64,000 bases of DNA from Sulfitobacter sp. JL08 (GTDB lineage: Bacteria; Pseudomonadota; Alphaproteobacteria; Rhodobacterales; Rhodobacteraceae), in contig NZ_CP025815.1 in the NCBI RefSeq assembly GCF_003352045.1, forward strand, positions 3,720,001 through 3,784,000. The letters run 5' to 3'. Under the pieces are notes generated by a model. It was not told the origin of the DNA, did no database searches, and worked only from the letters and a program-made list of their open reading frames with translations. Positions 4,942-10,063 of the stretch are shown here, one piece after another. The stretch's first letter is position 1. Every line of letters begins with the position of its first letter. The position numbers were made by a program, and so were the translations under genes.

Positions 4942-5964
4942 ATGACCGACAAAGAGACCACACGCCCGACGCCCTTGGGCATTTATGATAAACCGCGCCG
5001 CGATGCTATTTCCGGAATCGAGGTGGCAGCGCTTGCCCTCAGCCTTTTGTGGTTGATGGGCACAGCGATTTTCTTTTTGTCTCTGCCCGATCCCGAGGAT
5101 GCGCTGCCAAGCAACTTTGACAGCCTTCAGTTTCTGATGACGATTCTGGCGATATTCATGCCAATCGCCATGATCTGGGTTGCGGCAACGGCGGCGCGGT
5201 CGTCACGTGTGATGCGTGAAGAAAGCCAGCGCCTTCAGACCGCAATTGATGCGATCCGACAGGCCTATGTCGCGCAGAATCAGGGGCGGAACACGGCGTC
5301 TGAACCCTCTGTCGTGCGTAAACTGGACGAAATCGCTGCCGCCACACGCAAAACCGAAAGCGCGCTGGCTACGTTTTCCAGCCGTCGCGATGCATCGCCT
5401 GTGCGCGCGGCGCCACCTCCGGCTGACAGCTCTATGGGCGAAGAAAACCAAACCTCGCTGGCCCTTGGAACACGCGCCGAAGATATGGCGCCGCCGCTGG
5501 AACGCTCTGATTTCATCCGGGCCCTGAATTTTCCCGAAACCGCAGAAGATCACGAAGGGTTTGCAGCCCTGCGCCGCGCCTTGCAGGATCGATCGGCCTC
5601 GCAGTTGATACAGGCGGCACAGGATGTGCTGACTTTGTTGTCACAAGACGGCATTTACATGGACGATCTGCGCCCGGATATGGCCAGACCCGAGATATGG
5701 CGCCAGTTTGCGGCCGGAGCACGCGGGCGCAGCGTGGCCGCGTTGGGCGGTGTACGTGACAGATCGTCTCTGGCGCTCTCTGCCGGTCGCATGAAGCAGG
5801 ATCCGATCTTTCGCGATGCGGCGCATCATTTTTTGCGCAAATTCGACAGGATGTTTGCAGAGTTCGAAAAAACAGCATCGGACGCGGAAATCTCCGCACT
5901 GTCCGAAACCCGCACAGCGCGCGCCTTTATGCTGCTGGGCCGCGTCGCCGGCACATTTGACTAG
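4942..5964 (+). CDS. Uncharacterised inner-membrane protein with two N-terminal TM helices
   Basis: 340 aa, not assigned to a named family. It has a short cytoplasmic N-terminus, two hydrophobic helices (residues about 27-47 and 63-86), and a charged helical stretch with coiled-coil character (RVMREESQRLQTAIDAIRQAY). A Pro/Ala-rich linker (about 145-175) precedes a soluble C-terminal domain of about 165 residues starting near FIRALNFPETAEDHEGF. The C-terminal half has no motif I recognise. Starting 12 bases after greA, it is probably read through from it. Its stop is 25 bases from the convergent moeA stop. It looks like a lineage-restricted Rhodobacterales protein. Confidence 0.8.
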   Translation: MTDKETTRPTPLGIYDKPRRDAISGIEVAALALSLLWLMGTAIFFLSLPDPEDALPSNFDSLQFLMTILAIFMPIAMIWVAATAARSSRVMREESQRLQTAIDAIRQAYVAQNQGRNTASEPSVVRKLDEIAAATRKTESALATFSSRRDASPVRAAPPPADSSMGEENQTSLALGTRAEDMAPPLERSDFIRALNFPETAEDHEGFAALRRALQDRSASQLIQAAQDVLTLLSQDGIYMDDLRPDMARPEIWRQFAAGARGRSVAALGGVRDRSSLALSAGRMKQDPIFRDAAHHFLRKFDRMFAEFEKTASDAEISALSETRTARAFMLLGRVAGTFD

Positions 5965-5989: not shown

Positions 5990-8071
5990 CTAGAGTCCAA
6001 AACTCGCGTAGGGAATATACCGCACCGGATCCCCTTTGCTGATGTCGCGCGCGCCATCGTCCAGTTCAACAAGGCCTTCAGCCCAGCTTAGCCCGCTGAT
6101 CCGGCCTGACCCTTCGGATGCAAACACCTGCGCCTTGCCGTCGCGGATGCGGGCACGCAAGTATTCGCGCCGCCCCGGTTTCTTGCGCTTGTCGAAATCC
6201 GCAGGCACATCAAACCCCTGCGGGACCTGCCAGCGTTCGCCCGCCATCTGCGCCATCGCGGGGCGCGCAAAAACAAGGGTACAGACCAGCGCGGCCACGG
6301 GATTGCCCGGCAAGCCGAACACCGGCTTGCCGTTCCACAAGCCCAACGCCAAAGGCCGCCCCGGTTTGACGGCGATACGCCACAACGCCATGGCACCCGC
6401 CTGTTTCAATAGCGCCGACACATGATCTTCGTCGCCGGCCGATGCGCCACCGCTTGTCAGGATAACATCCGCTTCCAGAGCGGCCTGATCCAGCAATCCG
6501 CGCAGCGCGTCGCGGTTGTCAGGCGAAATACCCAAATCAACCGGTTCAAACCCGAATCGCGCGATCATGTTCAGCAGCATCGGGCGATTGGCATCAATGA
6601 TCTTGTTGTCCTGCGCATCGCCGGTCACATCCACCAGCTCGTCACCGGTAGACACAACAGCAACGCGCAAGCGCTTGTGCGTGTTCACTTGCGTGACACC
6701 TGCTGCCGACAACAGCGCCAAGTCGGCAGCCCCGATCCGTTCTCCGGCGCTCAACACCTTGTCACCGGCGGAAAAATCCTCTCCGGCGCGGCGCGTGTTG
6801 GCGCCTTGTTTCAACGGGCCATGAAACGCAATCTGGTCTTGGCCAACTGTCACGTCTTCTTCCAGAATGACCGTGTCCACACCCGCAGGCAGGGCAGCCC
6901 CCGTCAGTATACGAACCGCCGACCCGTTTGGAACCCGATCCTTGAAATCGCCCCCCGCTGCGGCGCGGCCAGTCACCAGCGGCAGATACTGTGCACCCGA
7001 TGGCACGCTGCCCGAAAACCCGTACCCGTCCACTGCCGAATTCGCGCGGGGCGGATTGGCCCGTTTTGCGAAAACCGGTTCGGCCAGAACCCGGCCCCTT
7101 GATTGCAAAACCGGTATCAGTTCGGTTTCGGTGACGGGGTTCAACCGATCACGCAGCATGGCCAACGCATCATCAACCGGGGTCCAGTCGACACCTGCGG
7201 GCAGCGCAAAACAATCATTCCTTAACGGGGGCGGCACGGGTTTATCCGGCGCAAGTTGCGCCTCGTGTCCAACCCCCAAAATCCAGCCCTCTTCCGGCGC
7301 GTCCACATCCAGCATCTTGCCCAGTATCACAGGGTCAAGGCGCGACAGGGTTTGCGCAACATTCCGGACCTGCCACGCGTCCTTGATCATGTTCTTGGGT
7401 GCGACCCCACCCAAAAGGCTGGGCCAGATTTCCACCACTGAAACAGGCCGGGCCAGCGGTTCGAATGGCCAGACCGAAAGCGTGTCAGGAAACGCGCGTC
7501 GCAGACGTGACAGAACCGGCAGCCCCATCATAACCTGCGATCCGACAGCACCCGCTCCTGCCAGTTGCCAGCAGGTGAACGCCCCGGGTGCCTGCGTTTC
7601 CACGCTTCGTCGGTCAGGAAACGGGTTAACGTATCCCTGCTTTGTACGCGGCAGACCTGTAATATCACGCTTTAGCCCATTGCCCCAGAACGGGCCATTT
7701 GTTCCCAGAGACAGATTGATTTCAGCAGCCATATCAAACCTGTTGTTTTGCGAACCGGCGTCTTTAATCCGGTTTTCAAACCAATCCCAAACGGCAAACG
7801 GATCGGTTTGCCCCGTCAAGGCATGCGCGAACCCCTTTGGATACCCGAACGGGAAATCAAACCCGATACAGCACCGGCGACCGGCCGACACCTCAACATT
7901 CAGAGTTTCCGTAATCCACTTTTCCGCCACCTGACGGTTGCGCAGATAAACCGGCGCTTCGGCGCCGCCTGCGCGTGCAATGCAGGCCCAGATCGCATCC
8001 TTTACCGGTGTCGGGCCACGATCATTTCCTCCGGACCAATCCACCATGATGAACGTGTCATAAGGTGTCAC
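5990..8071 (-). CDS. moeA: Molybdopterin molybdotransferase MoeA fused to an N-terminal RNase-H-like (DUF429-type) domain
   Basis: 693 aa against about 400 for ordinary MoeA. Residues from about 297 to the end are MoeA: the PPRANSAVDGYGF entry motif, then VVSTGDELVD, LTSGGASAGDEDHV, and VKPGRPLALG with GLPGNPVA. MoeA inserts molybdate into adenylated molybdopterin. Residues 1 to about 285 are a separate domain with MVDWSGGN near residue 9, GFDFPFGYP near 69 and VEIWPSLLG near 210. This Asp/Asp/Glu pattern recalls RNase-H-fold DUF429 proteins (inference). The start is GTG at 8069-8071, overlapping the mobB stop as GTGA. It is the last gene of the fdhD-mobA-mobB-moeA operon. Confidence 0.92.
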   Translation of the reverse strand: MTPYDTFIMVDWSGGNDRGPTPVKDAIWACIARAGGAEAPVYLRNRQVAEKWITETLNVEVSAGRRCCIGFDFPFGYPKGFAHALTGQTDPFAVWDWFENRIKDAGSQNNRFDMAAEINLSLGTNGPFWGNGLKRDITGLPRTKQGYVNPFPDRRSVETQAPGAFTCWQLAGAGAVGSQVMMGLPVLSRLRRAFPDTLSVWPFEPLARPVSVVEIWPSLLGGVAPKNMIKDAWQVRNVAQTLSRLDPVILGKMLDVDAPEEGWILGVGHEAQLAPDKPVPPPLRNDCFALPAGVDWTPVDDALAMLRDRLNPVTETELIPVLQSRGRVLAEPVFAKRANPPRANSAVDGYGFSGSVPSGAQYLPLVTGRAAAGGDFKDRVPNGSAVRILTGAALPAGVDTVILEEDVTVGQDQIAFHGPLKQGANTRRAGEDFSAGDKVLSAGERIGAADLALLSAAGVTQVNTHKRLRVAVVSTGDELVDVTGDAQDNKIIDANRPMLLNMIARFGFEPVDLGISPDNRDALRGLLDQAALEADVILTSGGASAGDEDHVSALLKQAGAMALWRIAVKPGRPLALGLWNGKPVFGLPGNPVAALVCTLVFARPAMAQMAGERWQVPQGFDVPADFDKRKKPGRREYLRARIRDGKAQVFASEGSGRISGLSWAEGLVELDDGARDISKGDPVRYIPYASFGL

Positions 8072-8559
8072 AATCCAACCTCGGACAGTATGAAATCTGC
8101 GATGGACACGGTATCGTTCAGATCAAATACCGGACGGTCCAGATCAAGCGGCACGTCCGAAGCGACAGCGCGCACCGTTTCATCATCCGGCGCGATCAAC
8201 GGGTTGCCGGTTTCGGCGCGATGCGCTTCAACTTTGTGGTGCAGATCGCGTTTATAGCCTTCGATCAGCACCAGATCCACCGGCGCCAGCTTCTTCAAAA
8301 GCATGTCCAGCGTGGGTTCCTCTTCGGTGCGCAATTCATGCATCAATGCGAACCGGTTGCGCGACGCCAGCAAAACTTCGGTGGCACCGGCCACGCGATG
8401 CCGATGGCTATCCTTGCCCGCGTGATCCACATCAAAGGTGTGATGTGCATGTTTGACGGTTGAAACCGTAAATCCGCGCGCGGTGATTTCGCTCACAAGC
8501 CGTTCCATCAGCCCGGTTTTTCCAGCGTTTTTCCAACCGACAACTCCGAAAATTCTCAT
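8068..8559 (-). CDS. mobB: Molybdopterin-guanine dinucleotide biosynthesis protein MobB
   Basis: 163 aa. A small P-loop GTPase with Walker A GWKNAGKT at residues 8-15, the KHAHHTFDVDHAGKDSHRH segment typical of MobB, and LVLIEGYKRDLHHKVE downstream. MobB is an accessory to MobA in attaching GMP to the molybdenum cofactor and is not strictly required in E. coli. It overlaps mobA and moeA by 4 bases each, which implies translational coupling within one transcript. Confidence 0.95.
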   Translation of the reverse strand: MRIFGVVGWKNAGKTGLMERLVSEITARGFTVSTVKHAHHTFDVDHAGKDSHRHRVAGATEVLLASRNRFALMHELRTEEEPTLDMLLKKLAPVDLVLIEGYKRDLHHKVEAHRAETGNPLIAPDDETVRAVASDVPLDLDRPVFDLNDTVSIADFILSEVGL

Positions 8560-9176
8560 GATGCGGCCTCAAGTGCGGATTGCGCGGCGATCAGATCATC
8601 CGGCGTGTTGACGTTGAAAAAGGGATCAATCCCGTTTGTTTCGAACAAGGCTTCGCGCCCGGCGTGTTGATCTGTCCAGACCACAACCTTGCGCACACCA
8701 TTGTTCAACGCCGCGCGCAGATCGTCGCGCAACGCGACCGGCCAAAGCCCGAAGGTCGGGTGGCGTACCTGGCCACGCTTTGCATCCGGCGTCGCGGCCA
8801 GAGCTAGCGGTGCCGCCATACCCTCAGCGGTGGCCAGAAGGCGCGGCACCAGATCACAGGGGAAAAACGGTGTATCAGCGGCGGCTGTCACAATCGTATC
8901 GGCGCCCTGATCTGCCGCCCAGTCCAAACCTGCCAGAACACCGGCCAAAGGGCCGACAAACCCGTCAATCGTATCGGGCAGAACAGGCAGGCCAAACGCT
9001 GCAAACCGCGCCGGATCGCCGTTTGCATTCAAGGCAAGCGATGCGACCTGCGGCTCAAGCCTGTCAATGACACGTCTCAGAATGGGAACACCGCCCAGTT
9101 TCAGCAGGCCCTTGTCGCCACCACCCATCCGGCTGGCAAGACCACCCGCCAGTATCACACCAAGAGGCTGCTTCAT
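8556..9176 (-). CDS. mobA: Molybdenum cofactor guanylyltransferase MobA
   Basis: 206 aa. It transfers GMP from GTP to molybdopterin to make the bis-MGD cofactor used by DMSO-reductase-family enzymes such as formate dehydrogenase and nitrate reductase. The N-terminal nucleotide-binding loop LAGGLASRMGGGDKG is complete, and the metal-binding AAADTPFFP segment follows. The start codon overlaps the fdhD stop as ATGA, and the stop overlaps the mobB start. Confidence 0.95.
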   Translation of the reverse strand: MKQPLGVILAGGLASRMGGGDKGLLKLGGVPILRRVIDRLEPQVASLALNANGDPARFAAFGLPVLPDTIDGFVGPLAGVLAGLDWAADQGADTIVTAAADTPFFPCDLVPRLLATAEGMAAPLALAATPDAKRGQVRHPTFGLWPVALRDDLRAALNNGVRKVVVWTDQHAGREALFETNGIDPFFNVNTPDDLIAAQSALEAAS

Positions 9177-10063
9177 GTCTTGGCCCCCTTGCGGCCCGAT
9201 TTTCTGGGTTCGTCAGCCACCTGATCCGGATCGGCGTCCCAGATCAGACGCTCTTCGCCCGAAAGGCATATAAACCTGCGCCCCCGCACCCGCCCGATCA
9301 GCGTCAGCCCGACATCGCGCGCGATTTCAACGCCCCACGCCGTAAAACCGGAACGCGACGCCAGCACCGGGATTCCCATAAGGGCAGTCTTGATCACCAT
9401 TTCAGACGTTAAGCGCCCCGTTGTGTAAAGTATCTTGCCCTCGGGCTGGACCTTGTTCATCAGCATCCATCCGGCAATCTTGTCTACGGCGTTGTGGCGG
9501 CCAACATCCTCCATATAGACCAAAGGGCGGTCTCCTTCGCACAGAACGGTGCCATGGATCGCTCCGGCCTCAAGATAAAGGGACGGCGTGCGATTGATCT
9601 TTGCCGAAAGCGTATAGAGCCAGGACGTGCGCATCGTGGTTTCGGGCAAGGTGATCCCCTCCAGCCCGTCCATCATGTCGCCGAAAACCGTGCCCACGGC
9701 ACAACCGCTTGTCCGCGTTTTCTTGCGCATCTTTGCTTCAAAATCGGTTTTGACCGCAGTGCGAACAACAATCGTTTCAAGGTCTTCGTCGTAATCGACA
9801 CCGGTCACGACGTCCTCAAGGCTTAGCATGCGCTGGTTGCGCAGAAATCCAAGCGCAAGGTAGTCCGGATAATCCCCGATCGTCATCGCAGTCACGATTT
9901 CCTGGCTGTTCAGAAAAATCGTCAAAGGCCGTTCTTCCACTACGGAAATCTGGCTGACCTTGCCATCCTGATCCGTTCCGTCAACCGCGCGCGTCAGTCC
10001 CGGCGCAAACGGGTCGGGCGCGATGATGTAATCTGTTTGATCTTTCGACTTGGCCAATTGCAT
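9173..10063 (-). CDS. fdhD: Formate dehydrogenase accessory sulfurtransferase FdhD
   Basis: 296 aa. FdhD carries sulfur from the cysteine desulfurase IscS to the molybdenum cofactor of formate dehydrogenase and binds the cofactor. Visible are VVEERPLTIFLN near the N-terminus, the catalytic loop RTSGCAVGTVF with a single cysteine, and YMEDVGRHNAVDKIAGW, TTGRLTSEMV and ASRSGFTAWGVEIAR. The annotated ATG (10061-10063) directly abuts AAGGGG, which is too close for a normal ribosome site. A TTG two codons later is better spaced and may be the true start. First gene of the Moco operon, divergent from azlC. Confidence 0.94.
   Translation of the reverse strand: MQLAKSKDQTDYIIAPDPFAPGLTRAVDGTDQDGKVSQISVVEERPLTIFLNSQEIVTAMTIGDYPDYLALGFLRNQRMLSLEDVVTGVDYDEDLETIVVRTAVKTDFEAKMRKKTRTSGCAVGTVFGDMMDGLEGITLPETTMRTSWLYTLSAKINRTPSLYLEAGAIHGTVLCEGDRPLVYMEDVGRHNAVDKIAGWMLMNKVQPEGKILYTTGRLTSEMVIKTALMGIPVLASRSGFTAWGVEIARDVGLTLIGRVRGRRFICLSGEERLIWDADPDQVADEPRKSGRKGAKT

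Follow-up and report, generated by a model that had tools for sequence, protein, structure and literature searches.

Why a MoeA-type enzyme should carry a further domain at its N-terminus, and what that domain might contribute to late assembly of the molybdenum or tungsten cofactor (Moco or Wco), is the question raised by one gene of Sulfitobacter sp. JL08. The gene lies in a 64,000-nucleotide stretch of the genome, which was analysed as a whole and is called the window below. It is a single open frame on the minus strand (8071-5990; 693 aa from a GTG start to the stop), described in the original prediction as an added N-terminal domain followed by a complete MoeA. This description was confirmed by three Pfam domains, MoeA_N (residues 298-458; 133.4 bits, cut-off 30.8), MoCF_biosynth (471-607; 98.8 bits, cut-off 26.6) and MoeA_C (623-687; 48.3 bits, cut-off 22.1), all of which scored above their cut-offs. 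The X::MoeA fusion gene (5990..8071) can be divided into domain X (residues 1-273; 7253..8071), a junction (residues 274-297; 7181..7252) containing PPPLRNDCFALPAGVDWTP, and the MoeA part (residues 298-687; 6011..7180), all on the minus strand.

The fusion gene is the last of a run of overlapping minus-strand genes in the order fdhD-mobA-mobB-[X::moeA], with a 4-base overlap between each pair of neighbours, so that its GTG start overlaps the mobB stop by 4 bp. The run starts with fdhD (9173..10063; PF02634, 4.6e-71), encoding the formate dehydrogenase accessory sulfurtransferase, followed by mobA (8556..9176; TIGR02665, 203 bits, above cut-off) for the molybdenum cofactor guanylyltransferase and mobB (8068..8559; PF03205, 5.1e-47) for a GTPase adaptor. 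A riboswitch in the operon was rejected, since the sole Rfam match between 4400 and 12000, PhotoRC-I at 19.9 bits, was below the gathering threshold of 45. An assembly artefact or one-off fusion was ruled out, as the genome (G000) is one 4.32 Mb contig and the fusion recurs in relatives. In seven loci inspected where X and moeA are separate genes, the junction sequence PPPLRNDCFALPAGVDWTP also opens the separate MoeA, as a form of M..PPPLRNDCFALPAGVDWTP, which indicates that the linker derives mostly from the N-terminal extension of MoeA itself. In most of these seven loci the stop codon of X overlaps the start of moeA, and the fusion therefore looks like the product of a lost stop codon. At one further locus (L004), X is in frame with the first 178 MoeA residues, after which the frame changes by a frameshift or a sequencing error.

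The MoeA half aligned over its length with E. coli MoeA 1fc5 (E 1.2e-64). The active-site acids of the E. coli enzyme, which we take to be D59, D142, E188, D228 and D259, correspond to D348, D432, E478, D518 and D549 of the fusion protein and were invariant in 14 fusions. Assignment of this partner to the divisome protein Glp was rejected because NF045515 scored 257.1 bits against a cut-off of 475 and the active-site acids are kept; public records of relatives carry the name Glp.

The three motifs quoted in the original prediction were all found in X, VDWSGG at residues 10-15, GFDFPFG at 70-76 and VEIWPS at 213-218. The same prediction had read them as an Asp-Asp-Glu pattern of a DUF429 or RNase-H-like protein; the acidic pattern and, in a predicted model, the RNase-H-like topology held up, but membership of DUF429 was not supported by sequence. 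A Pfam scan of the fusion protein gave no match in residues 1-297, DUF429 included, and PF04250 (cut-off 23 bits) matched neither the window protein, the X of L145, the CobH-fused L140, the MobA-fused L155 nor L016, with zero matches across the whole of G000. Profile-profile comparison of X with DUF429 by hhalign, which used small alignments throughout, gave a probability of 1.9% (E 0.026) with ten DUF429 rows that included two apparently out-of-frame ones (L207 and L211), and 3.3% and 0.5% with eight or seven cleaner rows. This was no better than the unrelated single-sequence controls, FdhD at 5.0% and MobA at 2.6%. DUF429 was thus rejected as a sequence assignment and survives as a fold-level lead. 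The nearest solved sequence to X was just a ribosomal protein (E 0.74), which we took as chance. A strong match was obtained with NF011066/PRK14495, whose positions 167-447 aligned with X residues 4-273 (E 5.7e-60); the window protein scored 203.6 bits, with the domain half alone, and missed the whole-protein cut-off of 596 bits. NF011066 was also matched by the CobH-fused L009.

The AlphaFold2 model of X, built from 14 relatives, had a pLDDT of 94.1 and a pTM of 0.92. In this model D11 closes strand 1, D72 lies just after the strand at 67-71, E214 falls within the strand at 210-215, and D231 opens the last long helix (230-244), so that acids are found at strand 1, at a following core strand and at the C-terminal helix, the arrangement of an RNase-H-like core; in the model the quartet is placed as in RuvC-type enzymes. 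VIA comparison of the model gave Z scores of 6.7 for Spt6, 6.6 for Tex, 6.5 for RuvC and 5.7 for YqgF, and a second RuvC entry reached 6.3 over 126 residues of a 158-residue chain, where a Z below 8 may reflect merely a common arrangement. Other proteins among the 50 realigned entries included Cas12a/Cas9 and terminases; the list consists mostly of RNase-H-fold proteins, to which we take Spt6, Tex, RuvC and YqgF to belong. A Foldseek search of the model against the PDB returned no chain at E 0.001 or better, the best being E 0.055. The model therefore supports an RNase-H-like fold for X, predicted to be closest to the RuvC/YqgF/Tex topology.

D11, D72, E214 and D231 were invariant in all 157 near-full X sequences (150 of 150 distinct ones), a count that omits three shorter sequences (L011, L195 and L016) and includes many close relatives, 54 sequences staying below 65% identity to each other. 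Eleven further residues from 28 tabulated positions, W12, R46, P78, R111, W129, R155, G174, Q179, P202, Q234 and V235, were also invariant. The net charge of X is -1 in the window protein and -3.5 on average, values that would fit binding of one small, specific molecule more readily than of DNA or RNA. Because of the invariant quartet, the invariant Arg, Gln and Trp residues and the slightly acidic charge, our preferred, though tentative, reading of X is a phosphoester hydrolase of the RNase H fold that depends on metal, acts on a small nucleotide and was recruited to late assembly of the (W/Mo)-bis-MGD cofactor.

A rather improbable alternative is that X is a non-catalytic scaffold, which holds MobA, MobB and MoeA together and channels the pterin intermediate. 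Its position between, or in fusion with, MobB and MoeA would suit such a role, as would the finding that nine of ten X-less regions, chosen for closely placed MobB and MoeA, have these two in one frame, and the MoeA1-MobB platform reported for Methylorubrum in the accessible text of PMC13197769. However, a pure scaffold would not need an acidic quartet that is invariant in every distinct sequence, and X also occurs in genomes without Moco genes. Nor does the model favour it, since the full-length fusion reached a pTM of only 0.53, with MoeA residues 341-407 and 412-430 below a pLDDT of 50, and gives no fixed packing of X on MoeA.

In order to place the fusion among other arrangements, 160 loci containing X were gathered. 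X was identical within seven pairs, most of them one genome present in two collections, and keeping one locus of each pair left 153 distinct loci. X was in one frame with MoeA in 76 of them, a share inflated by the inclusion of the 80 genome loci closest to the query. A separate X gene between mobB and moeA was seen in 24 loci, in addition to L004, a MobB::X frame in three (L182, L185 and L186), a mobA-mobB-X order with no moeA nearby in six, mobA-X without mobB in 11, a MobA::X frame in one (L118/L155) and X::CobH in seven, L016 being left unlabelled. In 23 loci no match to MobA, MobB, MoeA, FdhD or CobH was found around X within the limited flanks available (stretches of mostly 9-17 kb, 4.7 kb in one). 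Within the same loci, identity to the window was alike for X and for the MoeA half. Because X is found attached to a range of cofactor-making enzymes, it has the look of a genuine enzyme rather than of a sequencing error. The pairing with MoeA on which the original prediction rested is real, but MoeA is just one of several partners beside MobB, MobA and CobH, and X can also stand alone.

We then surveyed 120 genera of the window's family, counting X at E 1e-20 or better and dropping one weak match (G023). X was present in 67 genera, MobB over cut-off in 91, FdhD in 115 and MoeA in 119; X is widespread in the family. X and MobB occurred together in 56 genera, X only in 11, MobB only in 35 and neither in 18, a weak co-occurrence (Fisher p 0.03, with genomes that are not independent and kinship uncorrected). 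mobB lies directly upstream of X on the same strand in 48 of the 56 genera with both. Matches to X were obtained in 51 of 398 Pseudomonadota genomes; 32 reached about 1e-64 or better, and many of the weaker ones belong to a second group that we call family Y (L016, L219-L230 and L233-L236; open frames of about 290-450 aa). MoeA_N was absent from four of 20 tested X-bearing genomes outside the family (G323, G349, G411 and G343), all listed as 100% complete, and CobU and a convincing MobA were absent from all four. In G011 and G479 (L017 and L203), X stands alone between the genes that flank the window's operon (the greA side and azlC, read by eye), and mobAB is located elsewhere in the genome. 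Similar-looking proteins at these two loci also hold the place of a 340-aa protein encoded beside greA in the window (4942-5964, plus strand), which has no Pfam match over cut-off.

The MoeA-less genomes indicate that Moco cannot be the sole business of X, which is not a MoeA-specific module, and together with the lone X of G011 and G479 they give X a use apart from Moco. The proposal that X processes the AMP intermediate of MoeA must be abandoned as a general function, because X has several partners and persists without MoeA. The same observations lend weight to the view that X has nothing to do with Moco and is a nuclease of the RNase H fold, or some other housekeeping enzyme, whose operon site suits expression and whose overlapping gene fuses easily, a view that we consider unlikely, if still a serious one. 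It draws on the 23 loci with none of the expected neighbours, on the four genomes of 20 that lack MoeA, on the X genes that stay at the old site where mobAB is elsewhere, on the weak co-occurrence with MobB, and on the prediction of active nucleases for DUF429, the fold-alike of X, in the accessible text of PMC3985635. It is opposed by the fusion of X to three different neighbours from one pathway (MobA, MobB and MoeA), by the mobB-X adjacency in most genera that have both, and by the large number of polar residues that are invariant in addition to the quartet, together with the slightly acidic charge.

Cobalamin synthesis provided a further set of partners. An open frame that joins X to precorrin-8X methylmutase (CobH/CbiC) is present in L009, L012, L124/L140, L187, L188, L189 and L195, where the identity of CobH was checked with Pfam in two (L140, CbiC 7.4e-70; L009, 3.2e-66) and assigned in the others by similarity to L009. 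At L140 the strand of the fusion also carries a CbiG/tetrapyrrole-methylase gene, some 2 kb further downstream. In G025 (L021:6876-8308) the gene directly upstream of X encodes CobU, a cobinamide kinase/guanylyltransferase (PF02283, NF004469); the corresponding locus L013 is counted among the 23 that lack the five expected neighbours. These observations, with mobA as the most constant neighbour of Moco-linked X and the single MobA-X frame, could be taken to mean that X serves GTP-dependent cofactor guanylyltransferases generally, MobA in Moco and CobU in cobalamin synthesis, for example by handling the product nucleotide. We regard this as very improbable. CobU adjoins X in only one of 18 CobU-bearing genomes from a set of 33, the window's own genome being among the 18 with its CobU elsewhere, and it was on this count that a guanylyltransferase partner rule was demoted to a rival. 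Furthermore, CobH acts long before guanylylation, and some X-bearing genomes lack both CobU and a MobA over cut-off.

A tree built on 70 X sequences placed Moco-linked forms on one side of the midpoint root, which was used for drawing only, and most free or CobH-fused forms on the other, with L188 and several free forms as exceptions on the Moco side. On this tree the CobH label requires three changes and the MoeA-fusion label five, at least two of the latter being forced by well-supported branches. Judging from these sequences, the X gene has changed its position repeatedly. A phage origin was rejected, as none of 50,697 phage records matched at E 0.01. Six of 72,556 plasmid records matched, from the genera Ruegeria, Tritonibacter, Alloyangia and Salipiger, all predicted to be non-mobilizable. 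Fusion to MoeA is one outcome of operon packing, and X is a real, recurrent, enzyme-like domain.

A separate question is which metal the fused MoeA handles. The accessible text of PMC13197769 reports that MoeA1, MobB and FdhD of M. extorquens work for a formate dehydrogenase that contains tungsten, and names Arg291 and Ala312 as the residues that set MoeA1 apart from Mo insertases. In the fused MoeA the matching pair is R572 (KPG[R]P) and A593 (NPV[A]). The window genome encodes a second, free MoeA of about 400 aa (open frame 402; 34% identity), whose neighbouring gene looks by eye like moaC; this MoeA has Lys/Ser at the two positions. Among distinct MoeAs, the Arg/Ala pair was found in 75 of the 76 fused and 23 of the 24 split ones, both misses being truncated, and also in ten of ten MobB-linked MoeAs without X; of 11 other MoeAs, 10 had Lys/Ser and one was not parsed (unparsed rows in this count were L041 and L059, truncated, and L182 and L185, where no MoeA was found, and row L256 reads KPGKP with the second position missed). 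Since MobB-linked MoeAs without X have the pair equally, it speaks for MoeA and not for X, and it may mark ancestry instead of metal. The window genome also encodes a TupA-like protein (NF041772, 231 bits, below the 400-bit cut-off) and a TupB-like permease (NF041773, 164 bits, below 320), with an ATPase between them. At L259 (G000:C1, about 1303831), TupA/TupB-like genes are followed by a helix-turn-helix and PBP_like protein resembling the C-terminal part of PRK14498. From its residues, the MobB-linked MoeA paralogue is probably tungsten-biased, and the residue pair with the Tup-like genes makes a tungsten branch in this organism plausible.

Taken together, we infer the catalysis and substrate of X, its role in Moco/Wco assembly and the tungsten preference of its system as follows. 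X would be a free-standing enzyme family whose acidic quartet binds metal, and its substrate would be a small molecule containing a nucleotide, hydrolysed at a phosphoester or pyrophosphate bond, rather than nucleic acid. In Rhodobacterales, its gene would have joined the mobA-mobB-moeA operon that makes bis-MGD for FdhD-dependent enzymes, where loss of a stop codon at an ATGA-type overlap could have fused it to the downstream MoeA. The fusion may tether X to the insertase, the MobB-linked and probably tungsten-biased MoeA paralogue, and X would there clear away nucleotide species that are abortive or spent, such as a pterin that was adenylated or guanylated while lacking metal or holding the wrong one, or a released nucleotide. 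The AMP- or GMP-bearing pterin steps are suggested as target because the operon points there. A bolder form, which we hold to be decidedly improbable, makes X a cofactor-proofreading hydrolase of the RNase H fold, anchored to MobA, MobB or a tungsten-type MoeA. It would break down nucleotidyl-pterins that are abortive or carry the wrong metal, or a corrin intermediate in the CobH-linked form, and so let organisms that use both tungsten and molybdenum load the right metal.

We know of no RNase-H-fold member among the usual late Mo/W cofactor assembly factors (MogA, MoeA, MobA, MobB and FdhD), and X is a further strictly conserved, enzyme-like domain tied to late assembly in much of the window's family. 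If it acts on a pterin nucleotide, it adds a step to the pathway and may matter for tungsten formate dehydrogenases; if it does not, it offers a clean case of an unrelated enzyme caught by operon fusion. Our literature search found no paper on X or on an X-MoeA fusion and no activity data for X or DUF429; the accessible parts of PMC11733289 and PMC6147048 deal with other MoeA or molybdoprotein fusions. X goes by the name of hypothetical protein in a public record of Ruegeria sp. TM1040 (WP_011537357.1), where the gene order is the same, or hides inside 'MoeA'. In this strain and in Ruegeria pomeroyi (L084) it is a gene of its own, placed between mobB and moeA.

Compared with known systems, X shares its RNase-H-like topology and core-strand acids with DUF429 (PF04250), placed in clade D of the RNase-H-like superfamily in the accessible text of PMC3985635, but has a long insertion at about residues 80-175, between the D72 strand and the next core helix. 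That text describes DUF429 proteins as uncharacterised and likely active nucleases, found fused to NUDIX or RelA/SpoT domains; should X be a relative of DUF429, these fusions would likewise point to nucleotide chemistry. Family Y is close to X (hhalign probability 99.7%, E 2.8e-27), with the common motifs DWSG, GLD..SLP and VWPF..EIY, but many of its members end in a DH.xDA...AAW motif that is absent from X. It failed as a bridge to DUF429, to which it was not significantly similar. Its one member scanned, L016, had no Pfam match. The tungsten branch of Methylorubrum extorquens resembles the window operon in having mobB beside a dedicated moeA with the Arg/Ala pair; the accessible text of PMC13197769 mentions no X-like domain with MoeA1, MobB and FdhD, and tungsten use by the window organism is putative. 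The bifunctional MobB::MoeA protein PRK14491 (NF011060) ties MobB to the same kind of MoeA, but has MobB and not X as its N-terminal partner, and the MoeA half of the window protein scored 431.5 bits, below the 532-bit cut-off. A frame of 815 aa at L242 (G002) contains MobB at 223-383 and then MoeA, with 222 residues preceding MobB. Another parallel is NF011066/PRK14495, a 'putative MobB/unknown domain fusion protein' in which X follows MobB in one chain, whereas in the window gene X precedes MoeA and mobB is separate. Since the C-terminal unknown domain of this entry (167-447) is X, the domain fused to MoeA in Sulfitobacter is already partly known, as the unnamed half of an NCBIfam entry.
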